Source of the DNA: a virus
IMG/VR virus record: IMGVR_UViG_3300020205_005372
Location: 1-22,929 of that record
Reading direction: 5' to 3' (one strand)
Length of the DNA: 22,929 bases
Part shown: positions 121 to 22,624 of the stretch, piece after piece
How the letters are laid out: the number at the start of each line of letters is the position of its first letter
Position numbering within the stretch: position 1 is the first letter of the stretch
The notes under the pieces: generated by a model
Databases searched by the model: none
What the model was told of the DNA's origin: nothing
Seen by the model: the letters and a program-made list of their open reading frames with translations, nothing else
Made by a program: the position numbers and the translations under genes

Positions 121-333
121 TTATTCACACCACCATTCATCTCTTATTGTTTCTGCTGGTTTGTCTAAATCAACAAAGAATTTTGTTATGGTTATAGACC
201 TATTCTTTTTCTTACCCACAGTTAAAAGATAGTCAGTAACTTTTTGTTCTGTTGAAAATAAGAGTTGTTTTTCTATAGAAGTAGAAATTTCGCCATTGTA
301 AGTCCAAGCCGTAGCAATTGTTAATAAAAACAT
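121..333 (-). CDS. hypothetical protein, 70 aa
   Basis: I do not recognise the family. The protein starts MFLLTIATAWTYNGEIS and ends with the tryptophan pair of DEWWCE. It alternates short hydrophobic and polar stretches, suggesting a small beta-rich soluble fold rather than a membrane protein; the first ten residues are hydrophobic but no charged n-region makes a convincing signal peptide. The start is well supported: reading on the minus strand, AAGGAG stands about nine bases before the ATG and is itself joined to one copy of the GTAAGAAAAA motif (347-357). It is the last complete gene of the minus-strand block before the window edge. Confidence 0.6.
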   Translation of the reverse strand: MFLLTIATAWTYNGEISTSIEKQLLFSTEQKVTDYLLTVGKKKNRSITITKFFVDLDKPAETIRDEWWCE

Positions 334-370
334 TGTTATTTTCTCCTTTTTTCTTACGTTGTTGAAGTAT

Positions 371-430
371 CTGGTAATTTAATTAACTACCAGCAACAGG
401 TAACTAATATAGAGTTAATTAATTACCTGT
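371..430 (-). repeat. two adjacent stem-loops in the gap between minus-strand genes
   Basis: The first pairs CTGGTA at 371-376 with TACCAG at 388-393. The second pairs ACAGGTAA at 396-403 with TTACCTGT at 423-430. They lie just downstream of the stop of the 459-1268 gene. There is no convincing U-tract after either, so they may be RNA-stabilising or processing structures, or factor-dependent terminators, rather than intrinsic terminators. Confidence 0.45.
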
Positions 431-458
431 AACTGAAAGTCAATGTTACGTAAGTTAA

Positions 459-1268
459 CTACTCTTCGTTAGAGTAGTCGTACTCAACATCTTTATCATC
501 ATAATCATAATCTTCGATGTCATTAGTTTGACTTACAGGTGAAGCATCTTTTTGTCTATCTAATAACTCCAATAAACGACGATAACTGAAGTTGTATTCT
601 GTATTAGTTTCGCCAGATTCATTAGCTTCAGTTAGTGTATTAAAAGGTTGATATGGGCGACCTTCGGCGTATGTAATGTATTGATAATAATGATTTGGAT
701 TATGCCAAACTCTTGTGTAACCGATAGCAGGTATAACTCGATTAAATCCTAATGTCATTAATTCATTATCAATTTCTACGCCATTATCTCTAGCTCGAAA
801 ATTAGATAATTTACCTAGATACCATTCTGGAGTAGGTATTTCAAACTCAGGATTCATTTCAATTAATTCTGGTTGAACCTTATCCCAATTAAATGGATAC
901 AATGCTTCAGTTAAGCATTCATAATGACATCTACCTGACATTGCACGATCATCAGGTATCCATATACTAATCTCAATTTCTGTAACTTCCATGTTGTTGT
1001 CAAACTTGTACCATATACTAACTAATGTACCTGATGTAGATGAGTAACTGATAAGTAGGAACTTCTCATTGAAAGTTAACTCTAGATCCGCTTGTCCAAA
1101 TCCACAATCACTGAATGATCTAGATAACTGTATCTTAGTGAAGTTATTAATAACTTCAGTTAAACTATTTCCATTTGGAATGTATGTAGTGTTAATTGCT
1201 TTATTTAAAGCAGCGATTGTATAGTTAGCAGATGAGAAGCTTTCGACAGTCTTGTTAAGTAATTGCAT
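459..1268 (-). CDS. hypothetical protein, 269 aa, acidic tail
   Basis: No family recognised. The first two thirds are mixed alpha/beta with several aromatic-rich segments; the C-terminus (about residues 245-269) is strongly acidic and tyrosine-rich (DIEDYDYDDKDVEYDYSNEE), the kind of low-complexity tail that can mimic DNA or bind basic partners. There are no membrane segments. The start ATG at 1268 is supported by AGGAC about nine bases upstream on the minus strand. The gene sits in a run of minus-strand genes separated by roughly 90-125-bp gaps that contain hairpins, so it is probably one of several small units rather than part of a tightly packed operon. Any role as a DNA mimic is inference from composition only. 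Confidence 0.7.
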   Translation of the reverse strand: MQLLNKTVESFSSANYTIAALNKAINTTYIPNGNSLTEVINNFTKIQLSRSFSDCGFGQADLELTFNEKFLLISYSSTSGTLVSIWYKFDNNMEVTEIEISIWIPDDRAMSGRCHYECLTEALYPFNWDKVQPELIEMNPEFEIPTPEWYLGKLSNFRARDNGVEIDNELMTLGFNRVIPAIGYTRVWHNPNHYYQYITYAEGRPYQPFNTLTEANESGETNTEYNFSYRRLLELLDRQKDASPVSQTNDIEDYDYDDKDVEYDYSNEE

Positions 1269-1347: not shown

Positions 1348-1357
1348 AACTGAATAA

Positions 1358-1607: not shown

Positions 1608-1682
1608 GTAAGAAAACATGAGCGGCACTTAGATACTTGTATAATTTTATACCTAAGTAGATCCGCCCACCTGCTTTCTTAC
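1608..1682. repeat. 75-bp element bounded by inverted GTAAGAAA copies
   Basis: The element begins with GTAAGAAAA (1608-1616) and ends with TTTCTTAC (1675-1682), so its ends are 8-bp inverted copies of the dispersed motif. Inside are GTATAATTTTATAC, an inverted repeat with GTATAA and TTATAC arms, and an AGATCCGC word. It occupies the gap after the 1687-1911 gene. A stretch near 8140 shares a similar core (GTAT-x-ATTTTATAC followed by TAAGTA). It could be a small mobile repeat or a regulatory RNA structure; the sequence alone does not decide. Confidence 0.4.
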
Positions 1683-1911: not shown

Positions 1912-2007
1912 TGATCTAATTGTGTATGATGTTTAACTTATTTATCTTTAACGTCTTAACAAGTAACAAGACACAGCGAAATAAAAATCCCGTAAGAAAA
2001 AGGATGG

Positions 2008-2285: not shown

Positions 2286-3149
2286 TTAGTATGCTTCTAA
2301 GTTATCACCACTAATAGGAAACTTGAAACCTAACTTATTTTTAACTTGATATGTATTGTTATCAAGTATTTTAGTTATTTCAACCTTACGCTTCTGAATA
2401 CCGCGTTTAGTAGTAGTTAGTTCCCATGCTGTATTACCAACTGAGAACTTAGACTTCTCATAGATGCTGAAATTAACACTATTTTTTCTTACTCTAGATG
2501 CTTCATGTTGCGTAACTCTAACCGGAGTAGTAGTTGTATCGTTGTAATATTTAAGTACACTACGTCCACCTTTAGAATACTGTTGTTTAAGTCTAGTTGC
2601 GTTATCTTGTTTAAGTCCTACAAATCCAATAACATCTATTATTGATTTAAAGAATGGTTCTATTATGTTAGTGAAAATATCCTTATCGTAGATATCTGCA
2701 ACTTCAATAAACAAGTATGATTTATAGTTTTCAACTAACTTAACTGTAGTTAAATCAAATTGATGCGGATATGCGATATCTAAGATAAGTGAATCTAACT
2801 TAAATGACTCATTAATTAAACCTGATTCTACACAGTGTTTATAGTCCGGTATAGCGTTAATTTTAAGTTGTTCTACTATAGTGTTGATAGTAGACTTCTC
2901 TTTACCATATCTAATAAACAATGCGTAATAGTTACGTCGGATAGCAGGAGTTATTTTAACTGCATTATTGATTGCAGTAATAGAATCAGATAGAGTTGTT
3001 GTAGTTAGAGTAGTCATAATCAAGTGTTGTAGAGTAACGTGAGGTAAATAAAAACCTAGTTTATTAGTTGCATTAATATTGCTTCGCGTAGCTAACGTAA
3101 CTAACTCACTATGTGATGATAGAAATAACTTAGTCTTGGTTAACTGCAT
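2286..3149 (-). CDS. hypothetical protein, 287 aa, possible C-terminal small beta-barrel
   Basis: No family recognised for the whole protein. Residues about 1-200 are mostly helical. The last 56 residues (232-287) follow a pattern typical of SH3/KOW-like small barrels: F-S-V-G-N near the start, a basic turn (KRGIQKRK), then I-T-K-I-L-D-N-N-T-Y-Q-V, a KLG turn and a closing SGDNLE. Such barrels bind nucleic acids or proteins in phage integrases and other factors, but that role is inference here. A basic segment (about residues 195-225) precedes it. A copy of the GTAAGAAAAAA motif lies inside the gene at 2482-2492, in sense orientation (encoding part of VRKNSV). It has its own terminator downstream, and no evident ribosome site. 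Confidence 0.65.
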   Translation of the reverse strand: MQLTKTKLFLSSHSELVTLATRSNINATNKLGFYLPHVTLQHLIMTTLTTTTLSDSITAINNAVKITPAIRRNYYALFIRYGKEKSTINTIVEQLKINAIPDYKHCVESGLINESFKLDSLILDIAYPHQFDLTTVKLVENYKSYLFIEVADIYDKDIFTNIIEPFFKSIIDVIGFVGLKQDNATRLKQQYSKGGRSVLKYYNDTTTTPVRVTQHEASRVRKNSVNFSIYEKSKFSVGNTAWELTTTKRGIQKRKVEITKILDNNTYQVKNKLGFKFPISGDNLEAY

Positions 3150-3189
3150 AATAAAAAATATTAATTTGGTAAGAAAAATGTAGTCATGA

Positions 3190-3241: not shown

Positions 3242-5065
3242 TTATTGCACCACTGTAAACGGACAACAATACTTAGGATCATACTTAATCTCACCTGCTT
3301 TGTTCATTGGTGCTACTTTAATACCTGTTAAGATACTCCAATTAACCGATATATGTTTGATCTCTGAGTTAATTGTTACTAACTTACTAGGTTTGACTAC
3401 TGCGTTATGGGATAAGCCATAAAGTGACAGAAACATAGTAACATCACTACTAACTTCTATTTTCTTACTCTCTAGAGTGCTAGTTAATTGTGTTACTGGT
3501 ATGAAGATCGGGATCTGTTGCTGTTCCCATTGTCCGATCTTATTTTTAACCATCTTATTAACCATCTTAATTTCTTCTCTTAGTCCACCATTACCATCAC
3601 TTGCATAACTAACACGGTTAACTTGTGTAGTAGCGGTCTTTTGCAGCAATGTAAACCAGAGAACTGTCTTGATATCCTTAGTAGCTTTATTCTTAACTTC
3701 CTTAGTGTGAATAATACCAAGTTTATCAACTGTACCTGATTGATAACGTATACCGATATAACCGACTATATCGTTATCTTTGATATTAAACTGTTTTTGA
3801 GTTGGTAGTAACCATGTTGGATGACTTAAATTACCAGTTATAGCGTTAGTTTCCATACTGTAACGCTTAAATACTAGAACACTGTCACGATAAGCAGGAC
3901 TATCACTAGCTATTATTTCTATCTCAGTGTTAGTAACTCTCTGAGATAATAAGCACCAATCATCAAGTGATCTTGGGGCTTTACTAGATCCTCTTGTTTG
4001 TGGTATAACGCGCTTAACAGTTCCAATTTTGCGGATCTTAACACTGTCTATTATTTGTTCCCTAGTATCAGTGGGAACTGTAAAAGTTAAGTTAACAGCA
4101 TAACTGTTTTTTCTTACCTGTATGATTCTATCTAGATGATTAGTTAAATCTAAGTTGATACTACTAGCTAGAACTGAATTAGCGTGATTAATACCTATGT
4201 TGCTAGTTAAAATGTCTAATGCTATCAACTTAGGACATCTAAGAATGTTATCTCTACCAAAATACTTGTTTAGTAAATAGTCGTTATCTATCTTAGCTTC
4301 ATTAGTAACACTGAATTTTAGTATTCTAATGATGGTACTAAACTTAACTTTATCTACCTTAGTCCAGTCAGGAGATATGATGTAATCGCCCCATGTATCA
4401 TCAATTGATATAATCCAGTTAATACGTTGTAAATATTCAAGATCCGCATCACTAGGTTTAGTGCATCTGAATGTTAGATACTTTTTAAATGTATCAGACC
4501 GTTGTAATATCTCACTAACGTTAATATTACCATTATTAAATAGTAGTTGTTCGCTTTGTGTCTGTTGGTGTTCACTCATCACTTGATTAGTGACTTGTAA
4601 ATAAACTTTACGTAGCCAGAAAATAGAGTCTTGACCACTACCATCAAAACTGTTACTAGCTGGTCTAGTTGTATGATTAGTTATCATACTAACTGACTTA
4701 ATACTTTTAGTTTCTAATTGTGTTTGAATAGTGGGAAGAACTAATTCATGTTCAACACTAGAATAACTAGCATCACTAACAGGCATCAATTCTTGATCAA
4801 TGCTATGTCCAGTTTGTAATTCTCTCTCAAGTATCCGTATATCCTTAGTAGTATCTATTGTTGTATTAGTTGTTACGTGCTTAGATAGATTAGTGATAGC
4901 TATATTTTGTTCTATATCTAACAAGTATTCTAGATAATCGGACAATTCAAGCTTTAATGACTTAATAGATACTGATTTAATGTTGTAAGTTGCATTAATG
5001 TTAGTTAGTTTAGTTTCTAATTCATTGATTGTAGTAAGCAATTCAATCTTGGTAACAGCACTCAT
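3242..5065 (-). CDS. hypothetical protein, 607 aa
   Basis: This is the largest gene of the minus-strand block and I do not recognise it. Residues about 5-55 form a likely coiled coil (leucine/isoleucine heptads beginning MSAVTKIELLTTINELETK). A Thr/Ser-rich linker follows, then mixed alpha/beta sequence with many aromatic residues, and the protein ends with a paired cysteine (KYCCPFTVVQ). No membrane segment or catalytic motif is evident. AAGGA about eight bases before the ATG at 5065 supports the start, and a strong terminator follows the stop. A sense-orientation GTAAGAAAAAA copy is at 4107-4117. Its size and coiled-coil start would suit a structural or replication scaffold protein, but nothing proves either. 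Confidence 0.7.
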   Translation of the reverse strand: MSAVTKIELLTTINELETKLTNINATYNIKSVSIKSLKLELSDYLEYLLDIEQNIAITNLSKHVTTNTTIDTTKDIRILERELQTGHSIDQELMPVSDASYSSVEHELVLPTIQTQLETKSIKSVSMITNHTTRPASNSFDGSGQDSIFWLRKVYLQVTNQVMSEHQQTQSEQLLFNNGNINVSEILQRSDTFKKYLTFRCTKPSDADLEYLQRINWIISIDDTWGDYIISPDWTKVDKVKFSTIIRILKFSVTNEAKIDNDYLLNKYFGRDNILRCPKLIALDILTSNIGINHANSVLASSINLDLTNHLDRIIQVRKNSYAVNLTFTVPTDTREQIIDSVKIRKIGTVKRVIPQTRGSSKAPRSLDDWCLLSQRVTNTEIEIIASDSPAYRDSVLVFKRYSMETNAITGNLSHPTWLLPTQKQFNIKDNDIVGYIGIRYQSGTVDKLGIIHTKEVKNKATKDIKTVLWFTLLQKTATTQVNRVSYASDGNGGLREEIKMVNKMVKNKIGQWEQQQIPIFIPVTQLTSTLESKKIEVSSDVTMFLSLYGLSHNAVVKPSKLVTINSEIKHISVNWSILTGIKVAPMNKAGEIKYDPKYCCPFTVVQ

Positions 5066-6243: not shown

Positions 6244-6312
6244 AATACAAGTCTCTCTTTTTTTCTTACTAGGTTAGAACTTCCGGTTAAGGAAGATGTT
6301 AACCGTTCAGAT

Positions 6313-6932: not shown

Positions 6933-7557
6933 GGCAAATGAACTATATCCCTGGGACATCATAGAGAGAGAATTCGTACAAGGTAGAGATGAACGTGATG
7001 CTAATACAGGACTTAAACGTAAGACATTCCCAACTCATGAACAACTATGTCAACAATATGGTTGCAAACTAGAAACAATAAGAAATAGAAGTGAAACAGG
7101 TAAATGGTTACTTCAACGTACTCAATTCAAACGTAAACTACGCATTAAGAATACCGAAATTAACCTAGATGATCTAATGGGAGAAAGTGGTAAGTTCGAT
7201 GCACAACATCTACGTATACTAGAGAAAACTAATCAACTAATGGAGGACTTCCTAGAACCATATGTAAATGGAGGTTATGAAGATTTACCACCACTTAAAC
7301 CAAGAGATCTAAAAGACATAATAGGTGCAATTAAAGATAGTGTAATAACAGTACGTAGCATTCTAGGTGAACCTAATACAGCATCACTATTAGATGAGAT
7401 TAAAGAAGCAACATTAACTGAGCGTAAGAATAAGGAAGTAAGTAAGACTAGACTTGCTCATCTAAACAAACTACTAACTGATAGTGATAAAGTTAAAGAA
7501 GAATTGGAGTTGAGGAGATCAGAGATACGTAAGCAACTTGATAATGACAAAGCATAA
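6931..7557 (+). CDS. terS: probable terminase small subunit, 208 aa
   Basis: The small terminase recognises phage DNA and hands it to the large subunit for packaging. The N-terminus fits the type: an LYPWDIIEREF opening, then a helix-turn-helix (about residues 33-59) where FPTHEQLCQQYGCKLETIRN resembles small terminases with a PT-x-E-x-L-A-x-x-Y-G-x-S-x-x-T-I-R pattern, followed by GKWLLQR. The rest is helical with a long charged coiled coil at the C-terminus (about 135-208), suited to oligomer formation. It lies two kilobases before the large subunit, which is further than usual, with minus-strand genes in between. The start ATG overlaps an inverted repeat and has no ribosome site. A general phage DNA-binding regulator is the alternative. 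Confidence 0.6.
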   Translation: MANELYPWDIIEREFVQGRDERDANTGLKRKTFPTHEQLCQQYGCKLETIRNRSETGKWLLQRTQFKRKLRIKNTEINLDDLMGESGKFDAQHLRILEKTNQLMEDFLEPYVNGGYEDLPPLKPRDLKDIIGAIKDSVITVRSILGEPNTASLLDEIKEATLTERKNKEVSKTRLAHLNKLLTDSDKVKEELELRRSEIRKQLDNDKA

Positions 7558-7561
7558 CAAA

Positions 7562-8077: not shown

Positions 8078-8173
8078 TTACCGTAAGAAAAAAGGATGGA
8101 CAACAAAGTAATCTAATCAAGGCGCGACCTAACTCTGGTATCATTTTATACTAAGTACAAGAGCGACACTAAT

Positions 8174-8205
8174 AAAGCTACCTAGTTCATATTAGGTAGC
8201 TTTTT
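8174..8205 (+). terminator. bidirectional intrinsic terminator
   Basis: AGCTACCTA (8176-8184) pairs perfectly with TAGGTAGCT (8193-8201), with extra A-T pairs outside. TTTTT follows on the plus strand and TTTATT on the minus strand. It lies between convergent genes ending at 8077 (+) and 8216 (-). Confidence 0.85.
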
Positions 8206-8215
8206 AATAGCGGAT

Positions 8216-8422: not shown

Positions 8423-8515
8423 TACATCATCTAAAAAATTGATGAAGTTAGTTAACTTATCTGTAATGTAACTAAACTCAATTACATTATCTTTAATAAC
8501 ATAAATTTACATCGT

Positions 8516-8665: not shown

Positions 8666-8675
8666 AATTATCACC

Positions 8676-9134: not shown

Positions 9135-9175
9135 TAACTGTTATCCTTGTAATGTTAACTAACAATATACTAACA

Positions 9176-9637
9176 CTATTTTTTCTTACTCATACGATTT
9201 CTCAATTCATTAACTCCAAGTAGTGCAGTTCCAATACCTGCACCTATTAATGCACCTTTACCAATAGATACATTTCTAATTTTATTAAGTTTATTGTTTA
9301 GTCTAACTTCTATTATTTTTCTTTTAATTTTATTATCTAAAAACTTATATTTATTAGCAGTTTCTTCTATTGCTTTAATACTATTAATAGTCTGTTGTTT
9401 AACTTGCTTACTGTTTAGTTGTTTAATCGCTTCTTCATAAGCGATAGGATCATTCTTATAATATTTTAATAATTTACGTCCATGTTTAATATTAGTTTTG
9501 TAAAGGGCATTAACTTTACTATCTTTACCTCCAACGTATCCACCTATAGCAGTTGCGCCACCAAGTAAAGCAGTATTAGTTAGCAAACCTCTAGATTTCC
9601 TCTTCTTCTTATCTTTATCACCTATTTTACGCGCCAT
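9176..9637 (-). CDS. basic protein with two Gly-rich membrane helices, 153 aa
   Basis: The basic N-terminus carries KDKKKRKSRGL (about residues 8-18), followed by a Gly/Ala-rich hydrophobic segment (about 19-36), a basic helical middle of roughly 85 residues, a second Gly-rich helix (about 125-143, GALIGAGIGTALLGV) and a short basic tail (SKKK). The protein at 20575-21081 has the same tag and the same order of parts, so the two are paralogues or share a domain plan. Small-residue repeats of the GxxxG type favour helix packing in membranes. The stop codon lies within a GTAAGAAAAAA copy (9179-9189). It is transcribed divergently from the large terminase across only 32 bases. Confidence 0.65.
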   Translation of the reverse strand: MARKIGDKDKKKRKSRGLLTNTALLGGATAIGGYVGGKDSKVNALYKTNIKHGRKLLKYYKNDPIAYEEAIKQLNSKQVKQQTINSIKAIEETANKYKFLDNKIKRKIIEVRLNNKLNKIRNVSIGKGALIGAGIGTALLGVNELRNRMSKKK

Positions 9638-9669: not shown

Positions 9670-12564
9670 ATGACCTCTCGCGAACAACTAGAAAAGGAAT
9701 TAGCCAACATAGAGAACAAGTTATACGAACTAGCGATACTAGATAATAAGGATGAACAGTATGAATTAGAATCACTACTAGAAGAACAAAGTTACGTTCA
9801 AGCATATCAATCTAGTTACAGTTTCCTAGCTCATAGTTGGCAGACATTTAATGGTGAAGTATTCCTACCAGCTAAACATCTACACGCAATCGCCGAACAT
9901 CTAGATGCAACATTAACTGGTGAAATTAAACGACTCATAATTAATGTGCCACCTAGAACTGCTAAGTCAGCATTAGTAACTAAAGCATTCCCCGCATACT
10001 GTTGGATTAAACAACCTCATCTTAAATTCGCCAACGTTAGTTATGGTTATGGACTTGCTGAAGAAGGTAGTGTACATAGTCGCCAGATAATGCAATCTGA
10101 TTGGTATAAGCGAGGTATGGCTACAGTATGGCGCGATATGGGTGCTACACCTTGGGAGTTCAGACGCGATAAGAATATGAAAAATGATTATGAGAATAAT
10201 GCTAATGGTCGTAGATTCGCAACATCGTGTCCTGAAGGTATCTTTACTGGCATTGGCGCAGACACAATCATAATTGATGATCCTGTTAAAGCTAATGCTG
10301 CATATAGTAAGAATACACTAGATAAAGTTAATCAATGGGTTAGTAATACTCTGATGTCGCGACTTAACAACCAATCAGAAGGTGTTATTATACTAGTGAT
10401 GCAGCGAATTAGTGAATGTTTATTACCAGGTAATTTAATTACAACACCAACAGGAGTAAGAAAAATAGAAGAGTTAAATGTAAATGACTCTATTATTAGT
10501 TCTATCGGATTTGATAACGTATTACATAAAACAAACAAACAATATTCTGGTACAGTATATGGAATAAGAACTTATGGTGACTGTAATACTATATGGGTTA
10601 CTGACACTCATGAACTATTAACAGGAAGAGGTTGGATTAAAGCTGAAGATTTATTAGAAACTGATATCATAATTAACAATATAAATTATGATGTAACTGA
10701 AGATTTAGATTACATAATTAGTTTGTATCCTGATTTAGAACCAGGTAAACAAGTACATAAACCTAGTGGTAATTATAAAAATGCAACACCTCCAATAAGT
10801 AAAGAAGAATTAAGCGAACAACTTAACGCTAATACTATATTGAAAGTAGCTGAACATTATAATGTCCATAGAAGTACAATACATAACTATATGTATCATT
10901 ATGGTTTAAGAAAACAAAGACGTAACTACCTACCAAAAGAGATATTAAAGAATAAGTTATTTTGGCGATTTATAGGTTATTGGTTAGCTGAAGGAAATAT
11001 TACTAAAAGTAGAAATAAAAATACAGGTATACAGTTAGTATTTCATAAAAACGAAATTGAATACATTAACAATATAGTTGAATTAATAAGTCCTTACTTA
11101 AGAATTACTGTGACTCCACATAAAGAAGATAACTATACCAAATTGCAATTTAATTCAACACAATTAGCAAACTTTTTAGCTGATAACTTTGGATTACTGT
11201 CGCACTATAAACACTTACCTTCTTGGATAAATAAATTACCAATTGAATTTAAACAAGAGTTAATAAAAGGTTATTATCGTGGAGATGGTAGTTTATCTAA
11301 AAATATGTGTAGATTTGGTAGTGTTTCCATAGACTTATTAACTGGTATGAGACATTTGTTATATCAGTTAAATGTTAAGTCACAATTATATAAAAACAAC
11401 GCGCCAACTAAACCTAGGTTTATTAAAGGTAAACAGATATATCCTGGTATTAGTTATGAATTAAGATGTCTATTAAGAGATGCTCATTGGTTAGAAGATT
11501 ATGACAAAACTTTAAGTATTGCTGTTGAAACACGTAAAGAAAAAAATACTTTAACTAAAATTAAAATTAAAAGTATTGAAACTAAACAATATGACGGTTT
11601 AGTTTATGACATTACAACTAACGCTGGTAACTTTATTAGCGGTTTAACTACAGTTCATAACTGCGATATGACTGGTTTTTTCTTACAACAAGAAGGAGTC
11701 TGGGAACATCTGTGTCTCCCAATGGAATATGAAGATACTCAGAGATATTGGACTCGCATTGGTTGGACAGATTGGCGCACTAATCAGAATGAGTTACTTG
11801 AACCAGTTCGATTTCCGCGAGATGTGGTTGAGAGGCTCAAGAAGGACGAGGAATGGAGTTATGCTAGTCAATATCAACAACAGCCAGTTCCGCTCGGCGG
11901 TGGACTTATTAGGCGTGAATGGTGGCAGAATTGGTACATACTTCCAACTCAGTTTGATGCAACTTGCATGGCATTCGATTTATCTATGAACGATAAGGAG
12001 ACTAGTGATAATACGTCACTTATAGTTATGGGACGTAAGGATAACAAGTTCTATATTATTGACTTAGTGTATGGCAAGATGGATATACTTAAACAAGTAG
12101 AATCAATAATTGAGTTATGTAATAAGTATCCAATGATAAGAACTAGGTTAATTGAACAACGTGCAAATGGAGATGCTGTAATTGCACTACTGAAACGCAC
12201 GATAACTGGACTTATACCACTCATAACTAAAGGTGATAAAGAACAACGTATCCTTAGTTGTGTGCCAGAGATTAATGCAGGTAACGTATTAGTTCCAGAT
12301 GAGAATGTACATAGTTGGATTAAACCACTATTACTAGAAGCTACTATGTTTCCTAGAGGTAAGAATGATGATGCAATTGATAGTATGCAGATGGCACTTA
12401 ATCATTTAGTTACGTCTAATGTAATTACTTATATGCCACTTCAAGTTATTACAGATAGTCCAGGTAATACAACTCGTACTGAAATAAGAGAGCATATAAT
12501 GGATAGTAGTTATGGTGTTACAGTTAATGTGACTCGTAACTATATTAAAGGTTTATTTGAATAA
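9670..12564 (+). CDS. terL: terminase large subunit with intein, 964-aa precursor
   Basis: This is the packaging motor ATPase/nuclease. The spliced protein would be 549 residues, normal for the family. ATPase motifs: a Walker A variant PPRTAKS (residues 94-100) and Walker B TIIIDDP (199-205). The coupling region VMQRISE-CDMTGF is split by the intein (250-664). The C-terminal RNase-H-like nuclease keeps its acidic residues: D770 in AFDLSM, E829 in LIEQRANGD, and D901/D904 in NDDAIDS. A coiled-coil stretch occupies about residues 1-45. The ATG at 9670 has no ribosome site and lies only 32 bases from a divergent gene. The intein interrupts an essential motif, so packaging should require splicing. 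A GTAAGAAAAAA copy is placed antisense right after the splice junction (11676-11686). Confidence 0.95.
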   Translation: MTSREQLEKELANIENKLYELAILDNKDEQYELESLLEEQSYVQAYQSSYSFLAHSWQTFNGEVFLPAKHLHAIAEHLDATLTGEIKRLIINVPPRTAKSALVTKAFPAYCWIKQPHLKFANVSYGYGLAEEGSVHSRQIMQSDWYKRGMATVWRDMGATPWEFRRDKNMKNDYENNANGRRFATSCPEGIFTGIGADTIIIDDPVKANAAYSKNTLDKVNQWVSNTLMSRLNNQSEGVIILVMQRISECLLPGNLITTPTGVRKIEELNVNDSIISSIGFDNVLHKTNKQYSGTVYGIRTYGDCNTIWVTDTHELLTGRGWIKAEDLLETDIIINNINYDVTEDLDYIISLYPDLEPGKQVHKPSGNYKNATPPISKEELSEQLNANTILKVAEHYNVHRSTIHNYMYHYGLRKQRRNYLPKEILKNKLFWRFIGYWLAEGNITKSRNKNTGIQLVFHKNEIEYINNIVELISPYLRITVTPHKEDNYTKLQFNSTQLANFLADNFGLLSHYKHLPSWINKLPIEFKQELIKGYYRGDGSLSKNMCRFGSVSIDLLTGMRHLLYQLNVKSQLYKNNAPTKPRFIKGKQIYPGISYELRCLLRDAHWLEDYDKTLSIAVETRKEKNTLTKIKIKSIETKQYDGLVYDITTNAGNFISGLTTVHNCDMTGFFLQQEGVWEHLCLPMEYEDTQRYWTRIGWTDWRTNQNELLEPVRFPRDVVERLKKDEEWSYASQYQQQPVPLGGGLIRREWWQNWYILPTQFDATCMAFDLSMNDKETSDNTSLIVMGRKDNKFYIIDLVYGKMDILKQVESIIELCNKYPMIRTRLIEQRANGDAVIALLKRTITGLIPLITKGDKEQRILSCVPEINAGNVLVPDENVHSWIKPLLLEATMFPRGKNDDAIDSMQMALNHLVTSNVITYMPLQVITDSPGNTTRTEIREHIMDSSYGVTVNVTRNYIKGLFE
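10417..11661 (+). mobile_element. intein with LAGLIDADG homing endonuclease, 415 aa
   Basis: The element starts with Cys (codon 250, CLLPGNLITTPTGVRKIEEL) and ends with LTTVHN (codon 664) before an extein Cys, so all class 1 splicing residues are present, including the block B TDTH histidine. The endonuclease has both LAGLIDADG-type helices: FIGYWLAEGN (434-443) and LIKGYYRGDG (531-540), each with its acidic residue. Between the splicing domain and the first motif lies a helix-turn-helix-like stretch (about 378-417) that probably adds DNA specificity. Its leucine codons are mostly TTA, whereas the extein uses many CTA/CTT, suggesting independent recent acquisition. It sits in the coupling motif of the terminase ATPase. 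Confidence 0.95.
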
Positions 12565-13486: not shown

Positions 13487-13551
13487 TAGAGATATCGTTA
13501 ACTTAGTTAAACAAATAACGAGATAAGGTAAGAAAAATAAGGATAAGTAAT

Positions 13552-14610
13552 ATGAGCGAGTTGACAGTAGTAAGTAAAGATGGATTAAGTGTAGTTGAAT
13601 TTAACTACGATAATAATGTTATTGATTATGTATTAAACAATGATTACTTTAATGGAACAGCAATGGTGAAGACTTACGGTAAAGAACTCAGTAGATGGTT
13701 AGACACTAAGGATGCTGCCGAGGATATTTTTCTTACCGCTATAGAGTTAGGTATTGTTACGTACCCCGGAATTTCCGAGGAACGGTTTATGGAATTATCC
13801 GGTGCTGACAAAGTTAAGTTGGTTAAACAAAATAATTACTTCGGTTTAATTAAAGTACGAACTGCGGTTGCTAATGAGTTACGCGGTACTTTCATTCATC
13901 GTGAATTAGCAGTTAGTTTAGCTCAATGGTTAGATCCACGATTTAGACGACAAGTATCTAAATGGATAACAGAGTTAGTTAATCATGGCAAACTAATACT
14001 TGATTCTAATGAAGCGGCACTATTTGAACAATACAAACAATCACATCAATTACTACTAGAACAAGAGTCCGCCAATGTACGCGGTATTCCAATTGCACCA
14101 CGTAATGAAGTTGATTTAGCATTCCGCATTAAGAACTGGATTGATCTATGTACTGATGGTGGTAGATTCTACATTGAACATCCACTAATCAATACTATTA
14201 ATGCAGCAACTAAAACTAGAAGAGTTGACTTCGTTAAATCTAATGGACGTAATGTTATAGTATATGAGTTAAAGTTAAATAAGATAACTACAAGTGACAT
14301 AGCTAAGACTATCGGAGATAAAGGTTATTATCAGTTATGTGCTGATAAGTTCAATCGTCCTATTAAGTTCATATTCCTATCACCATTAGGTATAACTAAT
14401 GAAGCGCAGTTACTACTAGATAGGATGAATGATGTGAGTTTCCTAACTACACAACAACTATGCGAGGATTACTATGTTAAAGGTAAGAAAAATAAGTGGC
14501 GCAGTTCTGAATGGTATTTAGATGTGCAAGTTAAAGATGATAAGTTCTCACATCTATTCACAGATGAGTTTATTGATGATGTTACAGTTAAGTTAACTAA
14601 AGTAAATTGA
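13552..14610 (+). CDS. KilA-N protein with a probable PD-(D/E)XK nuclease domain, 352 aa
   Basis: The KilA-N domain occupies about residues 20-150: the YFNGTAMVKTYGKELSRWL opening (32-50) and the HRELAVSLAQWLDPRFRRQV segment (116-135) are typical. KilA-N proteins bind DNA and include phage antirepressors. The C-terminal half (about 175-352) is not a usual antirepressor tail: D226 in RRVDFV, then E239-L-K241 in VIVYELK, reproduces the D-x(n)-ExK signature of PD-(D/E)XK nucleases, with a further Glu in the preceding helix. It could thus be a free-standing homing or restriction-type endonuclease. AAGGAT and a GTAAGAAAAA copy precede the start. Codons at about 13715-13810 (GCC, TCC, CGG, CCC) are unlike the neighbours, a sign of transfer. 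Confidence 0.8.
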   Translation: MSELTVVSKDGLSVVEFNYDNNVIDYVLNNDYFNGTAMVKTYGKELSRWLDTKDAAEDIFLTAIELGIVTYPGISEERFMELSGADKVKLVKQNNYFGLIKVRTAVANELRGTFIHRELAVSLAQWLDPRFRRQVSKWITELVNHGKLILDSNEAALFEQYKQSHQLLLEQESANVRGIPIAPRNEVDLAFRIKNWIDLCTDGGRFYIEHPLINTINAATKTRRVDFVKSNGRNVIVYELKLNKITTSDIAKTIGDKGYYQLCADKFNRPIKFIFLSPLGITNEAQLLLDRMNDVSFLTTQQLCEDYYVKGKKNKWRSSEWYLDVQVKDDKFSHLFTDEFIDDVTVKLTKVN

Positions 14611-14928: not shown

Positions 14929-17900
14929 ATGAACATCAACAAGTACATTAAACAACAAGATGAGTTAGTTACTGCATTTACAGATGGATTAACTAATAGT
15001 ATAGGTAACTCATTATCGCGTAAACAAGATAATTTTAACTTAGTTATCAGTAATCAATTAACTAAGTTATGGAATGATAGTTGGAATCTCGGACGTACTC
15101 ATGCAATAGGTGAAGCGACGCAGTTACAACAATCCCTTTTTTCTTACTCTTATAGCATTGCGGAATTCGCATCACCACTTGAAAATATTAGAAGTGAAAT
15201 TAATAAAATCAATGAAGATAAGTCTAACTATCAATCTGAGTTAATTAGAATACGTCGTGCTTATCAAGATAAAGAAGGTAATTATAATGGTACTAAAATA
15301 CTACGATCTATTAGAAAAGAAGGTACTTATACTGGAGTAGATAAAGTTAGAGCAATTCAAACTATTGTTAAACGTGATGATGAATTAGTTGCATTAATTA
15401 AAGCTAAGGATAACTTACTTGAAGTTAAGATTAATGAGTTTCAGACATTAAGTGATCCTGCTAACATAGCTAAGTTAAATGAGTTATCTAAAGTTACTAA
15501 AGATACTACACCGGAAGTTAATACAGTTAAGTTACCTCGTGTTAATACAACTGAAGTTAAACAAGAGTTAGATAGAGCAAGTAAAAGAAGAGATGATTGG
15601 CGTAAATCATTTGTAGATGAGAAAGGTAATTTAAACTTAGCTAAGTATCGTAAAGTTAGAGGATTTGATAATGATGTTAGTGATGTAGATGTACTAACTC
15701 AAATGAGAATAGAAGAACGTGATTTAAATAATGAAGTTAATAGTAAAATACAAGCACTTCGCGAAACTAAACCACGTAAAGGTATATCTAATAAAGAACA
15801 ACGTTTAATTGAACAACAGTTAAAGAAGCAACAGAAGTTACAAACAACTAAGTTAAGTGATGATAAGATACCTGCTAATATAAGAGATTCAGTTAGAGCA
15901 ATTGAATCACGTCGTCAAATTGAATCTACTAGAGGTGATGTACCGTTACTTGAACAAACTGAATTTGGTAAATCGTATTTAAATAAACGTATTAATGTAT
16001 TAACTAATGATTTAAATGAACGATATAAAGATACCTTAAAACAAGTAGTTCCTGAATATCTTGCTGATAATAAAAAAGATAAAGATGTTAACTATTATCG
16101 TCGCATTAGTGGAATGTTAACTAGAGAAGATGCTAAACAGATGGAGTTATATAATAAACAACTTGATCTAATTAACGGTAAGTTAAAAGATATTCCAAGT
16201 AAGGAGATAGCTGAAATTAATGTACCTAGTTATAAACGTCAAGAGTTTCGCAACACTAAATATAATCCTGAAGTACCACTAAGTCCCGGTAATAAGAAAC
16301 TACTTAATGAGTTACCAGATAAAGCAGTTTATACAAGAGAAGATATTAAGAGTTATCGTGACAAGTTACTTGAGAAGGTAAGAAAACTAAAGGATAATCA
16401 GGCGCGAACTAAACGTATTGCAATAACTGAAATGGGACACGCTTATAATCTAGGACGACTTGATTACTACGTGAAACAAGGTATTAAATTTGTTAAGTGG
16501 AACAATAGTATTGAACATAAGCGGGCAACTATACCACCTGATTACCGTCAGAAGTATGCTGAGTTATTTACAAGACGATTAGAGCAAGTAATAGATCGCC
16601 CATTCCAATTAGAAACATTTAAGATGGATGGTATTGTATGTCCAATATGTCAGGAACGCGCCATATATGATTATGGTTATGGTAAAGGGATAATTCGAGT
16701 AGAAGATTTGTTAAATAATATACAAACTCAACCGTTACTTCACGCAAATTGCTCGTGTTTTCTTACGGAATCAAAGGAATCTGAAACTAAAGAACCATTT
16801 AATGTACCAATCTATATATCATCATTACTTAATAACAATGTTGTTAAATGGGCAACTGCTGGTATATTAGGAACTGCTGCTATGTATGCGGCATTTAAGA
16901 AGAGTAACTTAACTCCACTTAATATACCTGATGTTATTAGAAGTAAACCAGCAGTAGTTACAACTAAAGCATTAACTAGTGCATTAGTTAATGATGTTCC
17001 TATTATTGATGTTCCTCTAGTTCCATTACAAGTACCAGACTTAATACCATCTAATATAAACGTTAATAGAGCTAATGACGTATTAGAACCTATACTTAAT
17101 TGGCGCACGGGTGTTATTGATGATTTAATTACTGAAGCTACAGAAACTGATGTTAAGTATGAGTTAATTAATCCTCAAATGCAAGAGTCTACTGAATCAG
17201 CAGTAGATGGAATTATCCGTAGAGCTAGAGAATATAAAGCTGCAACTAAAGCTGATTTAAATAGACCTATACTTGATAGATTTAAAGAAGATGTAGATGA
17301 AATTCAATATTATATGAATGAAATAGAAGATGGTAACGTTAAGTTATATTCATCTATTCAATCAATGAAGTTGGTTAGGAAGTCAGTAATGGATGAGGGG
17401 TTAACTACATTAACTGATGATGTAATTCCACCTGGATTTACTATGGAACAAGTTATTGCAAGTAATCCTATTATTAGACGATTAGACTTCCGCATTATGG
17501 ATAGTGAGAATTCACTTAGAAGACTACTATCATTACAGTATGGTGAAAATAGTTATTACTCGCGTTTGCGCGAAATACAAAATGACTTATTAAGTAATGA
17601 ATTATTTAAACGAGAGTATCTTAAAGGTAAACGTAGTGTTCTATTGAGATTACAACGTAACTTAAGTAGAGAAGTGTTTCCTCAAATAATGATAGAAGAT
17701 ATAACTCAATTAAGGAAGAGAGTGTTAAGTAATTATCTAACTACAACTAATGAACAGTTTGATAGATATGTTAGACAGTTAGATAACATTGAGTTTGCAA
17801 TAGATAATCAACTTGAGTTAATTAAGAATAAGTTAGGTTTCACTAGTTTAAATCTCCAAATTTCTACACTTAATAATCAAGCAACTCTCGCTGCTGAGTT

Positions 17901-18004: not shown

Positions 18005-19576
18005 ATGCTTATGTATGCTCAATTCTCAACTAATGTTAAGACTCACAATCGTAAAGGTAAATTAGTTAGAAGCTTCAATCGCAAAACGTTAACCCCTGAA
18101 CAACGTGAACGTAATAGAAAGTTACGTATGTTAAGTGGTTATGGAATATTAGGAGTAACTGTAGGAGCATTACTATATCCATCATTAGTGTTCGATAAGA
18201 AAGCTAAAAATGCGTCAGATGTATTTGATGCTGCTGATAGAAAACGTATGGATGATTATGGAATGAAGAAAGTTAAATCATTTGATGAACGTTTATCTGA
18301 AGCTGCTGAAGCTGATAGAAATAGAAGTGGAAGTGGTAGAGGTTTATATTTAAATGATTTAGAGTTTGATAAATCAATTGCAAATAAGGGTAAACTTCAA
18401 CCACGTTTACGTAACTTAAATAAAATAATGAATGGTTCTGAAGATAAATTATTTCCTGGTTTATCTAAAGATATTAAAGCACTTAAAAATAGTAAAGGTT
18501 TAACTAATGGTGGAGTTAAATATAAGAAGGAATTAATTAAAGCAGTTGGACAGAAGTTAAAGATACTTAAGTTAATGGGTAGGTTTAATAATGATGTAAC
18601 TACAGCTAACTTCAAGCGCACTAAAGTTAAATCATTTATTAGGAAAGGTAAAGTAGTTAGAAGTTACGATAGATCAATCAGAGATAGAATTCGTGATGTT
18701 GCTATAGGTGCAACTGGAACTGCATTATTAGGTGGTGCATATCTATTAGGTAAACGTAATGGGGCTGTTTCACGTAGTCAATCATTAGATGAAGTTAAAT
18801 CGTTAATTAAGAACATTAAACCTGAAGTTACAGTTAATGTACCAACTCCAATTGTTAATGTAACTAATACTCCAAGTGTAGTTAGAGAAGTTATCAATAA
18901 CACTCTTAGTAATAACACAGTTAAAGAAGTATCTAGTAACTCAAGTAAAGTTAAAGAAGCAATTAACAATGCAGTTAAATTAGATATAGTTAAAGTTAAA
19001 TTACCATCTAAGGTTAATAACCTAAGTCAATTAACTATTAATAAAACTGCTAGTGAAGCTGCTAAGATGAACGACGTTAAATTAGAGAAAACTATTAGTC
19101 TTATTAGTAATAGATTACAGAAGTATAACGTTAGTAATGATGAGTTAGTTAAACTAGATAGTTTGTTACTTAGTTTAAATAAATTTAAAACAGGTAAGTT
19201 TAATAAACCTAGTGAACGTGAGTATTTACGTAAACAGATAATTGAATATAGAGATTACTTTAAGTTACCTAAAGTAGATGTAGATGAACTTAATGTAGAA
19301 TCAGTTGTAGATAGAGATTATTCAACTAAATTAAAGAAGGTTATTAATAGAGATAAATCAATACTAGACATCTATCAAAGTGAGTTAACTAAACGTCGCA
19401 AAGTTGCAACTAATATAACTACTCCAACTGATGCTGACATTGATAGACTTAGTGGTATGTTAGATGACTTTAGTAGTTCACGCAAACTAATATTATTTAA
19501 TGACACTAAATCGCGCCGTTCCTTTTTTCTTACAGATACAAGTATTCCTAAATTAAGTAAACTATTAAATAGATAA
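18005..19576 (+). CDS. tag-family membrane protein with two tag modules, 523 aa
   Basis: The protein contains the shared tag twice. The first copy, VKTHNRKGKLVRSFNR (residues 11-26), precedes a hydrophobic helix (about 45-62, GYGILGVTVGALLYPSLV). The second, VKSFIRKGKVVRSYDR (208-223), precedes a Gly-rich helix (about 230-250). The second module, up to SIRDRIRD, resembles the start of the next gene (19595), so this looks like a fusion of two formerly separate tag proteins. Between and after the modules the sequence is basic and helical, with a Val/Asn-rich stretch (about 275-320). An antisense GTAAGAAAAAA copy near the end (19523-19533) encodes SFFLTD. It follows the head protein by seven bases and probably acts in or on the virion (inference). 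Confidence 0.7.
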   Translation: MLMYAQFSTNVKTHNRKGKLVRSFNRKTLTPEQRERNRKLRMLSGYGILGVTVGALLYPSLVFDKKAKNASDVFDAADRKRMDDYGMKKVKSFDERLSEAAEADRNRSGSGRGLYLNDLEFDKSIANKGKLQPRLRNLNKIMNGSEDKLFPGLSKDIKALKNSKGLTNGGVKYKKELIKAVGQKLKILKLMGRFNNDVTTANFKRTKVKSFIRKGKVVRSYDRSIRDRIRDVAIGATGTALLGGAYLLGKRNGAVSRSQSLDEVKSLIKNIKPEVTVNVPTPIVNVTNTPSVVREVINNTLSNNTVKEVSSNSSKVKEAINNAVKLDIVKVKLPSKVNNLSQLTINKTASEAAKMNDVKLEKTISLISNRLQKYNVSNDELVKLDSLLLSLNKFKTGKFNKPSEREYLRKQIIEYRDYFKLPKVDVDELNVESVVDRDYSTKLKKVINRDKSILDIYQSELTKRRKVATNITTPTDADIDRLSGMLDDFSSSRKLILFNDTKSRRSFFLTDTSIPKLSKLLNR

Positions 19577-19594
19577 ACTCATGTAATTAAAATT

Positions 19595-20572
19595 ATGGTA
19601 AAACAATCTAAAGTTAAATCATATGTTCGCAATGGTAAAACTGTTAGATCATATGACAGATCAATTAAAGATACAGTTAGATAAATAGGAAGTGTAGTTG
19701 GTGCTGGACTGGGTGGAATCGCAGCAGTTAAATACGGTAGAAGAGTACCATTAGCATTACCTGATAAGTTTGTACTTGGTGCATTAGGTGGTGCGTTATT
19801 AGGTGGAGTTCCTGCAAGATTAGTTGATAAAGATAATAAGAAAGCTAAACAGCAATTAAAAAATGTAGCAACTATTGGTGGAGGTATAGCCGGATTAGGA
19901 TTAGCTACATTAGGTGGAGTTAAAGGATATAAGTTTATTAAAGCTCGTAATACTAAGTCTTTAGTGTTATTTAATCCAAATGAATCATATCGTAATACTG
20001 TTGCAGCATTTAATATTAAAGCTAGGGAACAAGCTAGATCAGCACCTAAAGATTTAAATGAACTTAGAAGGAAGTATCAATCATTGTACAGTAATAGTGA
20101 TTTACAATCAGCAGATTTAAGTATTAGTTTATATGATATTAAATCTAAAACGCTAACAATGAATAAATCAGCAACTGCTAGTGACGTATTGAAGATGTAT
20201 GATGAAACACTAAATCCAATAGCTAAACAAATAGTTATTGATAGTGAACGTATTGCAGCAATTGAAGGTAAAGATGGGTTAAGAGATACTATTTATAAAG
20301 CAGTTACTAAGGATCTAGATGTACCACTAAGTAAAGCAGAACGTAAATATTTTGCTGGTGTTGCTAAGATGAACGATCCTAACGTTAGAGAAGCTGAACG
20401 TAAGGTACTTAAACAATCATTAGATAGTTATGCTAAAGTTAATAATATTGATACAACTAGAGTTAGCGGTAGTGTAGATTTAAATAAGATAGTTAAGTCA
20501 CTTAAAGAACGTGGTTTTACTGAATTAGATATTAAACAAATGATGGATAAACACAATAACATTAAACTGTAA
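19595..20572 (+). pseudogene. tag-family membrane protein gene interrupted by an in-frame TAA
   Basis: One reading frame runs 326 codons from ATG 19595 to TAA 20570-20572, broken only by TAA at 19682-19684 (codon 30). Before the stop is a complete tag (VKSYVRNGKTVRSYDRSIKD), after it Gly-rich helices (about codons 31-45, 59-76 and 92-115) and a long helical, charged C-terminal part. The paralogue at 18005 continues through the equivalent place straight into its membrane helix. No ATG follows until 20159; GTG at 19964 is possible but would drop all the helices. It may be a nonsense mutation, a sequencing error, or readthrough. TAA is the ordinary stop of many neighbours, so recoding by an altered code is unlikely. 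Confidence 0.7.
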
Positions 20573-20574
20573 TT

Positions 20575-21081
20575 ATGCAATATAAATTAGCTACATTTGG
20601 TCGCGGTAAAGATAAAGTTAAGCGTAAATCTCGTGGTTTAGGTTTCTTCGGTGATAAGAAAGATGATGATGGTAAGAAAACAGTAACGTTAAGAGAACCT
20701 GTTTTAAAAAGAGGTTTAATTGGTGGAGCTATTGGTGGAGGTTTAGGATTAGCTGCGGGAGGAGGGCTATATAGTGTTTCAAATAAAACAATTAAAGATC
20801 AATTTGGTAGATTAAAGAATGTTAATCAAAAGCGTAGAGCTGTACGTCATTTAATAAAACAAGGTAATGGTTTAATTAAATTATCTAGTCGTACAGGATT
20901 AGGTGCTAACTTAGGATTAAGACCATCTAAGAAGCTATTACTAATTGGTGCATTAGGTGGAGCAACATTAGGATCTCAAATTGGAGCAATTAATGGATTA
21001 ATGACTTATGGTAATCGTAAAAGAGTATTTAATGATGAGAAGATTAAGAAGGATTACAAACTACGTGATAACTCCAAGTAA
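20575..21081 (+). CDS. basic protein with two Gly-rich membrane helices, 168 aa
   Basis: After a short start (MQYKLATFGRG) comes KDKVKRKSRGL (about residues 12-22), the tag shared with the 9176-9637 protein. Then follow a Gly-rich helix (about 45-65, LIGGAIGGGLGLAAGGGL), a basic middle segment, a second Gly-rich helix (about 122-142, LLIGALGGATLGSQIGAI) and a basic tail. The start ATG lies two bases after the preceding stop and the stop overlaps the next start (TAATG), so it is translationally coupled in the virion operon. Repeated GxxxG spacing suggests tight helix packing or oligomers in a membrane. A sense GTAAGAAAAC copy is at 20672-20680. A role in the virion or in genome ejection is inference. 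Confidence 0.7.
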   Translation: MQYKLATFGRGKDKVKRKSRGLGFFGDKKDDDGKKTVTLREPVLKRGLIGGAIGGGLGLAAGGGLYSVSNKTIKDQFGRLKNVNQKRRAVRHLIKQGNGLIKLSSRTGLGANLGLRPSKKLLLIGALGGATLGSQIGAINGLMTYGNRKRVFNDEKIKKDYKLRDNSK

Positions 21082-21788
21082 TGAAACAAGTTAAAGTAAA
21101 ACAATCAGTTCGTAAAGGTAAGTTAGTACGTGGTTATAATCGTGTACTAACTAAAGCAACAGATAAGTTATTTAAGAAAGATGGTAAGAAGAAGTTAAGT
21201 AATCTTAGTAAAGGTATTATAGGCGCGACTTCTATTGCAGGTTTATTAACTGCATTTAAATATCGTCGTAATATAGCTCAGTTGAGTGAGAAGATTGTAA
21301 ATAAGGTTAGTCCAATTGTTAAACGTGTGTTTAATAAAACTGGAAATACTATTAATCAACCTATCACTAACACAACTGGTGATGTTATGGCAGCTAGTGT
21401 AACTGGTGGAGCTATGACTAGAGAAGCTAGACGTAAATACATACGCGAATTAGATAACTTACCAAGTGAAGCAGTTAATATAACTCCAATTACTAAAGGT
21501 GAAGATAGTTTAATTACTAGACGTATTAAACGTAATGCGGCAACACTCAATAAACGAGTTAATAATGCAAGAGGTAAACTAACTTCAGTTAACTATAATC
21601 CAGATGATGATCTATATTTAGCTATCAAGACTAATAAGGATTTTAGTTATAAGGGAGTTAGTAATATTGAAGATAGACGTGCTACTCGTAAAGCATTAGC
21701 TAGGAAACTTAAACAACAGTTAGGAGTTAATCCAGGTAAATCAACTCCAGTTAAACGTAAACGAGGTAGACCGAGGAAATCAACTTAG
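21081..21788 (+). CDS. tag-family membrane protein with C-terminal AT-hook, 235 aa
   Basis: The tag VKQSVRKGKLVRGYNR occupies residues 6-21, followed by a lysine-rich stretch and a hydrophobic helix (about 45-59, GIIGATSIAGLLTAF). The rest is basic and ends in KRKRGRPRK (225-233), a textbook AT-hook: an RGR-P core flanked by basic residues that lies in the minor groove of AT-rich DNA. A membrane anchor at one end and an AT-rich DNA binder at the other would suit a protein that holds or guides the phage genome (inference). Its start overlaps the stop of the 20575 gene (TAATG). Its stop TAG overlaps by four bases the stop of the convergent hydrolase gene, with no room for a terminator. Confidence 0.75.
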   Translation: MKQVKVKQSVRKGKLVRGYNRVLTKATDKLFKKDGKKKLSNLSKGIIGATSIAGLLTAFKYRRNIAQLSEKIVNKVSPIVKRVFNKTGNTINQPITNTTGDVMAASVTGGAMTREARRKYIRELDNLPSEAVNITPITKGEDSLITRRIKRNAATLNKRVNNARGKLTSVNYNPDDDLYLAIKTNKDFSYKGVSNIEDRRATRKALARKLKQQLGVNPGKSTPVKRKRGRPRKST

Positions 21789-22624
21789 TTATTAAATAGA
21801 TGTTTAATAATAGGTTTAGTTACTTTACTTCTAGTATCTGCATCAGTTAAATAAGCATCTAATCTATGACTATTAACGTTAGGTATTACAACTGAGTTTG
21901 GCGCACGCAATTTCTCGAACCAATCTCTATCACCCATTATATTAAGGTCATTTTTAGTTGATAGCACTTTAAAGTCACTTGTTCTAATTGTTGCTACTTT
22001 AACTTTAACGCCGCGTTTATTTAGAATGTATTGAATATCTCTAGCCATATTTCCGCCGGCACTATATCCAACTATACTTATTCGTTTAGTTGGATTTTTA
22101 ACGTGCCAACTATAAATATCTTCAGCTAATTTAATTGATTCATTATTGCGCCCACTAAAAAATGGCTCACTTACGTTTTTAACTAACTTAGGAAAATAAG
22201 CCGGATCATTCTTATCTATCGTCTGTAATTTAAAGTTGTGGTCTAATGATATGAATTGTACATTTTTTCTTACGTTAGAGGGAGTATTCTTTTTTAATGC
22301 AATTGTTAATCCTTCAGCTTGTCGTAATGCACTTTCATTTGCAGCAATTCCACCAAATCCACCTATAGTAAATGTAATATCATCAATATTGTTCTTTAAT
22401 ATAATACCTACATTGGGTTTAACTTTAATTGACTTAGCTGCTTTATCTAAGTTACCTATATAACGTCGTTTTAATGCAATATAACTAGCAGCAGTTAGTC
22501 CAAGTGTACTTGCTGTAACTATGGTTGCTTTAACTAAAGTTCCGTTATCTTGTTTACGTTGGTACTGTTTAACTAGTTTACCTTTCCTTACATAAGATTT
22601 AACCTTTACGTCTTGTTTAACCAT
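21785..22624 (-). CDS. tag-bearing membrane-anchored alpha/beta-hydrolase, 279 aa
   Basis: The N-terminus carries the tag VKSYVRKGKLVKQYQR (residues 8-23) and a membrane helix (about 30-51). The rest has alpha/beta-hydrolase features: a strand leading to GGFGG (88-92), where an oxyanion-hole loop is expected; the nucleophile elbow ISIVGYSAGG with S188 in GxSxG; and a late histidine H253 in NSHRLD, with D217, D226 or D232 as possible triad acid. Lipases and esterases share this layout. The substrate is unknown; phage enzymes of this fold can attack host envelope esters, but nothing here proves it. Its start overlaps the stop of the XRE gene (TAATG), so both are co-expressed. The tag ties it to the virion-operon proteins although it lies on the other strand. 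Confidence 0.7.
   Translation of the reverse strand: MVKQDVKVKSYVRKGKLVKQYQRKQDNGTLVKATIVTASTLGLTAASYIALKRRYIGNLDKAAKSIKVKPNVGIILKNNIDDITFTIGGFGGIAANESALRQAEGLTIALKKNTPSNVRKNVQFISLDHNFKLQTIDKNDPAYFPKLVKNVSEPFFSGRNNESIKLAEDIYSWHVKNPTKRISIVGYSAGGNMARDIQYILNKRGVKVKVATIRTSDFKVLSTKNDLNIMGDRDWFEKLRAPNSVVIPNVNSHRLDAYLTDADTRSKVTKPIIKHLFNN

Follow-up and report, generated by a model that had tools for sequence, protein, structure and literature searches.

An exact, strand-wise spaced word in the genome of a tailed phage, with different words in its distant relatives

The stretch of DNA considered here (the window, 22,929 bp in its whole length; IMG/VR record IMGVR_UViG_3300020205_005372) is part of a tailed-phage genome and has a G+C content of 32%; its most frequent 9-mer, GTAAGAAAA, is the subject of this report. 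This word is part of a selected, orientation-sensitive and phage-specific signal: it is highly enriched, nearly invariant, kept in place in relatives and evenly spaced on each strand separately, and distant relatives carry different words that behave in the same manner. From sequence, predicted structure and analogy with known systems, we lean, by a little more than an even chance, toward an explanation in which these words are hard-wired priming sites for lagging-strand synthesis, read by the phage's own primase.

Abundance, exactness and conservation of the word

The window contains 22 exact copies, nine on the plus strand (GTAAGAAAA) and 13 on the minus strand (TTTTCTTAC), as compared to 0.3-0.7 copies expected under Markov models of orders 1-4 and 3.1 under order 5. 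A first-pass annotation made from the same letters had counted 21 copies (12 and 9); the high enrichment that it reported is real and was understated, and the exact count is 22 (9/13). Single-mismatch neighbours of the word are almost absent, with all 27 of them summing to eight occurrences, and the edges of the word are equally sharp: G precedes TAAGAAAA in 22 of 24 cases, A follows GTAAGAAA in 22 of 24, and outside the word proper there is a mild preference for A on the 3' side and nothing else. The annotation correctly placed copies between genes and, within genes, in both sense and antisense orientation, and it was also right that codon bias offers no explanation, since synonymous-codon shuffles of the coding part of the window yield 1.4 sense and 0.65 antisense copies where 10 and 5 are observed; lysine codon bias is thereby ruled out as the source. 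A mobile or duplicated element was rejected as well, on the grounds that the flanks are unrelated beyond the word, and so was a promoter or ribosome-site motif: some copies do stand before start codons, yet 31 of 87 in the 111-kb relative described below are antisense within genes. Searches of the literature for the word in both orientations returned unrelated sequence lists only.

Relatives of the phage were sought in IMG/VR with TerL and the capsid protein, and include a contig of 111,623 bp (G001; loci L029-L034). The first-pass annotation had proposed a whole-genome count, and in G001 this amounts to 87 copies (42 forward, 45 reverse) vs. 1.3 expected, i.e., ~66-fold enrichment and a density of about one per 1.3 kb, with the reversed word, as a control, occurring once. 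By context these copies are 44 sense, 31 antisense and 12 non-coding. Another relative, of 68.7 kb, has 50 copies (26 and 24 by strand). The annotation had also suggested following the word across strains, and loss at aligned positions was not seen: in alignments between the window and its relatives, the word is unchanged in 111 of 111 site alignments covering eight window sites, as compared to 29% (at 75-80% identity) to 64% (at 90-95%) of other 9-mers in the same alignments. Because the relatives are close to one another, few independent events lie behind the 111 alignments. When redundancy was reduced, the word was kept in 10 of 10 cases in the 75-80% identity bin vs. 29% for other 9-mers, and in 20 of 21 vs. 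54% in the 85-90% bin. Among lake variants, columns of the word vary at 2.6%, vs. 10.2% in the flanks. In the left 6.7 kb of the window, homology with the relatives is scarcely detectable, yet nine copies are present there, an indication that newly arrived DNA also comes to hold the word. In L075, a divergent relative whose major capsid protein is 73% identical, the word is missing at orthologous sites, and the 8.8 kb available from it is too short to reveal a word of its own. No integrated relative was found in bacterial genomes with the major capsid protein as query.

Strand-wise spacing and the words of distant relatives

The gaps between copies in G001 are more even than random, with a coefficient of variation (CV) of 0.69 that none of 20,000 random placements matched and that 100 control 7-mers, all at 0.83 or more, did not approach. 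The description of the word as evenly spread in the first-pass annotation is thus statistically correct. Strand does matter to the signal, with one evenly spaced series of copies on the plus strand and another on the minus strand. When orientations were permuted at fixed positions in G001, the summed per-strand CV was 1.21 observed vs. 1.61 (P 0.0008), and orientations alternate along the DNA, in 60 runs vs. 44.5 in G001 (P 0.0008) and 17 runs vs. 11.6 in the window (P 0.012). Same-strand gaps shorter than 500 bp number four in G001 vs. 15.1 expected, where this and later expectations for spacing assume uniform placement and control words were run alongside; the control 7-mers had neither strand-wise spacing nor alternation.

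Six phage genomes were compared, including G001, the contigs G407, G412 and G413, and the Pseudanabaena phages PA-SR01 and Pam2, to whose capsid protein that of the phage is 26% identical. PA-SR01 has two copies of GTAAGAAAA but 102 of [AG]CAGAAAA (53 and 49 by strand), and a comparison of PA-SR01 with Pam2 places GCAGAAA and CAGAAAA in the group of most over-conserved 7-mers. G407 (83.7 kb) has 56 copies of GTTAGAAAA and 107 of GNTAGAAAA; G412 (111.2 kb), for which no close relative was found, has 101 of GTCCGAAA (52 and 49 by strand; 2.95 expected); and G413 (132 kb) has 143 of C[AG]TAGAA. Aligned on GAA, the words read GTAA-GAAAA, GNTA-GAAAA, CRTA-GAAR, RCA-GAAAA and GTCC-GAAA, with a shared [GC]NNNGAA-like skeleton and variable bases before it. 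The three new words, in G407, G412 and G413, were reached by following the primase gene discussed below through IMG/VR, and following DNA polymerase in the same way gave no new word; contigs that were found with the polymerase and lie outside the clade carry none. That distant relatives do likewise with different words argues for a real, phage-specific signal.

Two side observations belong to this survey. Four marine-looking contigs (L274, L290, L300 and L303) have a dispersed CCCGAACAA word, with CCGAACA at 10-20 copies per 11-14 kb; they are strand-biased or short, their TOPRIM-helicase protein is fused, unlike that of the clade, and they were set aside. In the deposited Pam2 record (ON014754, L081-L083), implausible product names (neurotoxin, neurexin, centromeric histone) look like over-interpreted remote-homology matches.

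The strand-wise behaviour recurs with the other words. Same-strand gaps under 500 bp are depleted for GTCCGAAA in G412 (3 vs. 20.1 expected), C[AG]TAGAA[AG] in G413 (10 vs. 25.9) and GNTAGAAAA in G407 (17 vs. 28.7), and orientations alternate for GTCCGAAA in G412 (74 runs vs. 51.5, P 0.0001) and C[AG]TAGAA in G413 (95 vs. 72.5, P below 0.0001). Close pairs on opposite strands are near chance frequency in G001, G412, G413 and G407, and one such pair of GTAAGAAAA copies is 31 bp apart. In these four genomes the mean same-strand spacing is 1.5-2.6 kb, with 59-85% of gaps between 1 and 6 kb. The words are balanced between strands in almost all 20-kb bins, and genes hold the majority of copies, with sense/antisense counts of 44/31, 46/47, 40/28 and 47/62. 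Taken together, same-strand avoidance, alternation and indifference to the opposite strand imply that the two strands are served independently, with a copy of GTAAGAAAA on each roughly every 2.6 kb, and that whatever reads the word acts on one strand or moves in one direction. A direction-blind protein on double-stranded DNA would not give strand-wise spacing.

Copies in the window, neighbouring features and the likely host

All copies located here are exact matches to GTAAGAAAA, and fractions give the aligned relatives in which a copy is kept. The nine copies in the left part of the window are at 207..215 (-), 349..357 (-; in the gap before the open reading frame [ORF] starting at 333), 1608..1616 (+), 1992..2000 (+), 2484..2492 (-; sense within ORF 2286-3149), 3169..3177 (+), 3460..3468 (-), 4109..4117 (-) and 6261..6269 (-). 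These are followed by 8083..8091 (+), 9181..9189 (-; 6/6), 10456..10464 (+; inside the terL intein) and 11678..11686 (-; antisense in terL, 24/24). Farther along, one copy precedes the KilA-N ORF at 13552 (13528..13536, +) and another is antisense within the KilA-N gene (13728..13736, -). The 1022-aa head gene has two antisense copies, at 15139..15147 (-; 15/15) and 16758..16766 (-; 14/14). Two plus-strand copies are at 14483..14491 (16/16) and 16378..16386 (14/14). The last three are at 19525..19533 (-; antisense in ORF 18005-19576, 14/14), 20672..20680 (+) and 22265..22273 (-; 8/8). The intein that interrupts terL has an endonuclease-like part and spans 10391-11665; related contigs do not have it and align continuously across that point.

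A second over-represented word, GGCGCGAT, occurs at 11 places in G001 on both strands (e.g., 1280, 47414 and 109304; ~0.8 copies expected) and at 10130 and 19510 in the window. Many proteins of the structural half have a short basic tag near the N-terminus (e.g., GSKDKKKRKSR or RKGKLVRxYxR) that is followed by small-residue segments, as encoded in G001 L029-L030, in window 7538-9637 and 18005-22624, and likewise in G412; this may be a targeting or virion-packaging tag. At 22624..22836 on the minus strand lies the gene for a 70-aa helix-turn-helix (HTH) protein, which matches a PHROG transcription regulator (E 1.4e-10) and has a homologue in all six genomes. Among the shared DNA-binding proteins that could read the word, it is the only one encoded in the window, and the primase gene lies outside the fragment.

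One end of G001 (111259-111507; L034 11259-11507) has a formylglycine-generating-enzyme-like fragment that shares 93% identity with a gene on a plasmid of Anabaena sp. 90. This fragment and the capsid link to the Pseudanabaena phages point, indirectly, to a freshwater cyanobacterium as the host, and the large freshwater phage is probably one of cyanobacteria. Enrichment of GTAAGAAAA was not seen in 386 cyanobacterial species and 80 Anabaena-family genomes, a sample chosen on this presumed host; the densest genome seen has about one copy in 34 kb, close to double the density of the reversed control word. The absence of enrichment in genomes sampled from the host group makes it most likely that the reader is phage-encoded. 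The 21-kb contig L240, whose DNA polymerase is 39% identical to that of G001, has 12 copies of the cyanobacterial repeat HIP1 (GCGATCGC) vs. 0.25 expected, which suggests a cyanobacterial host for L240.

Candidate readers and the priming-site explanation

Ten gene families are common to all six genomes: structural and tail proteins, a protease, the HTH protein, an AAA helicase, a PD-(D/E)XK exonuclease and a zinc-ribbon/TOPRIM protein, the putative primase, are among them, and DNA polymerase is not. RuvC- and RecA-like genes also occur in these phages. In the zinc-ribbon/TOPRIM protein the four zinc cysteines and the TOPRIM acidic residues are invariant between sequences that are otherwise 26-36% identical, and three members match PHROG primase families (E 1e-7 to 8e-7). 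In G001 the protein is encoded at 76624-77457. Its AlphaFold model finds T7 primase (1nui) first, and nearly all of its top 17 structure matches are T7 primase or DnaG (E 1e-4). The six genomes thus share a primase gene with a predicted T7/DnaG-like fold, and none of their other common genes fits a strand-specific signal spaced like Okazaki fragments as well. Whether this primase is what reads the word we regard as roughly an even call; the helicase, the exonuclease or the HTH protein could do so instead.

Single strands are the substrate of primases, which move along with the helicase and determine how long Okazaki fragments are. Selection keeps the orientation-sensitive word on each strand at intervals of ~1-6 kb. 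In the explanation that we favor, GTAAGAAAA would read TTTTCTTAC on the single-stranded lagging-strand template, and the template words of the different lineages would be TTTTCTTAC, TTTTCTAAC, TTTCGGAC and TTTTCTGC. The phage primase, moving with the phage helicase, would begin its RNA primer in the purine part of the word (AGAAAA or GAAAA), such that the starts of Okazaki fragments are hard-wired in the genome, and the sites on both strands along the whole length would fit forks that move in both directions. Same-strand repulsion would arise because sites closer together than a useful fragment are wasted, and the other words in related phages would reflect zinc ribbons and sites that have changed together. 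Strand-wise spacing, repulsion, indifference to genes, absence from host genomes and lineage-specific words could all be explained in this way.

It is the combination of strand-wise spacing in the Okazaki range with the known start rules of primases that leads us to this proposal. The start sites of DnaG primases are CTG, CTA, TTA and CCC, which give primers whose first two bases are purines; which of these sites a bacterial primase uses is set by a residue of its zinc domain (PMC5204125). The template strands of four of the five words hold such trinucleotides or similar ones (CTT, CTA, CTA and CTG), and every word has AG or GA, i.e., a complement starting with two purines, which is compatible with the DnaG rule and is not proof of it. 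The priming sites of T7 gp4 and DnaG (GTC for T7; CTG, CTA and CCC in bacteria) resemble the words in being strand-specific, in the 1-6 kb spacing and in the purine start, as the phages resemble T7 in encoding a zinc-ribbon/TOPRIM protein with a zinc domain that may confer specificity. They differ in that the known sites of 3-5 bases are in large excess and few are used, whereas here the word is 8 to 12 bases long with few near-misses, serves both strands and varies from lineage to lineage, and priming is a prediction. Okazaki fragments of T7 are 1-6 kb long though GTC sites occur much more often than that, and whether a site is used depends on the bases that flank it (PMC12839067). A literature search for over-represented priming sites in phages found no paper.

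Several points weigh against this proposal. Known primases need just 3-5 bases, and a site of 8 to 12 would be unusually long, even though flanks matter for T7 primase. The template trinucleotide in G412 is CGG rather than CTN, the structural model is of moderate quality (mean pLDDT 72), Pfam matches of the primase fall below curated cut-offs, and association alone does not single out the primase because the helicase, exonuclease and HTH protein are also in all six genomes. Among the words, that of PA-SR01 is more degenerate than the others, and several definitions were tried for G407, G413 and PA-SR01. Alternation is not significant in G407, the spacing effect is weak in PA-SR01 (GCAGAAAA, CV 0.68, P 0.0005) and there is none in Pam2. 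The independent lineages are few, and the contigs are without proven hosts.

A Chi-like role, which we consider unlikely, would have a phage recombination nuclease/helicase enter from either end and switch at the oriented word, thereby protecting or recombining phage DNA. Such sites are short, asymmetric, over-represented words spread through genes whose orientation matters, they would serve both strands, and an exonuclease gene is present in all six genomes (PHROG exonuclease E 1e-30), and RuvC- and RecA-like genes occur as well. But that exonuclease is small (270 aa) and has no helicase domain, no RecBCD/AddAB-like gene was recognised among the genes examined, with no systematic search made, and the function gives no reason for same-strand avoidance. 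A Chi read by the host should be enriched in the host, as it is not in the sampled cyanobacteria, and the words, unlike Chi, have no strand bias along the genome and change between related phages.

Marginally more doubtful still is that the words bind a phage repressor or another DNA-binding protein, in stoperator-like, condensation or segregation roles, with the 70-aa HTH protein, which has homologues throughout the six genomes, as the reader. In Cluster A mycobacteriophages, stoperators number 20-30 per genome; they are asymmetric, 13-14 bp long, lineage-specific in motif and oriented with transcription (PMC6550527). The words share their asymmetry, dispersal over the genome and lineage-specific motifs; they differ in number (87-143 copies), strand balance and location mostly inside genes, with sense and antisense copies both common, and binding to double-stranded DNA leaves strand-wise spacing and repulsion unexplained.

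We think it improbable that the words mark places where one strand of the virion DNA is nicked, as happens at specific sites in T5, phiKMV and tf. In phage tf, 14 nicks fall within the 9-base consensus TACTRTGMC, and near-miss sites are very scarce (PMC3517423), an exactness much like that of the words, and nick sites are strict, phage-specific and act on one strand. However, the nicks of these three phages are few and confined to one strand, whereas the words are balanced (9/13 in the window, 42/45 in G001) and number ~90, and nicks at opposite-strand copies 31 bp apart would risk breaks.

Least probable is that copies of a host word, be it a Chi, a DNA uptake sequence or a methylation site, have built up in the phage, even though such words are frequent and dispersed in other bacteria and the plasmid-like fragment in G001 supplies a likely host group, because the sampled cyanobacteria are unenriched and the phage has a copy every 1.3 kb. 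A DNA uptake sequence is disfavored since the high density that it should have in the host is not seen in those genomes, and so is HIP1, likewise a dispersed repeated word of cyanobacterial DNA, but a palindrome with zero copies in the window and G001. Of the parallels listed in the first-pass annotation, an evenly spread functional word, primase signals included, has held up, and the missing host enrichment disfavors host Chi and uptake sequences.

Which sites a primase uses in a real genome is a question even for T7, where no more than a handful of the several hundred candidates are active. If the words are priming sites, the genome itself would list them, as strict words at one per 1.5-2.6 kb per strand, with five words in five lineages; primase specificity would be readable from sequence, and the outcome of zinc-ribbon swaps would be predictable. 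PA-SR01 or Pam2 on Pseudanabaena are cultured phages that could be used for Okazaki mapping. It may be, at somewhat less than an even chance, that a widespread group of large aquatic phages, with cyanophages among its members, uses lineage-specific, evenly spaced words throughout the genome to program the starts of lagging-strand fragments on both strands, with words that change along with the primase. Should the reader prove to be something other than the primase, what the data define is still a new phage signal, one that counts strands and spans the genome.

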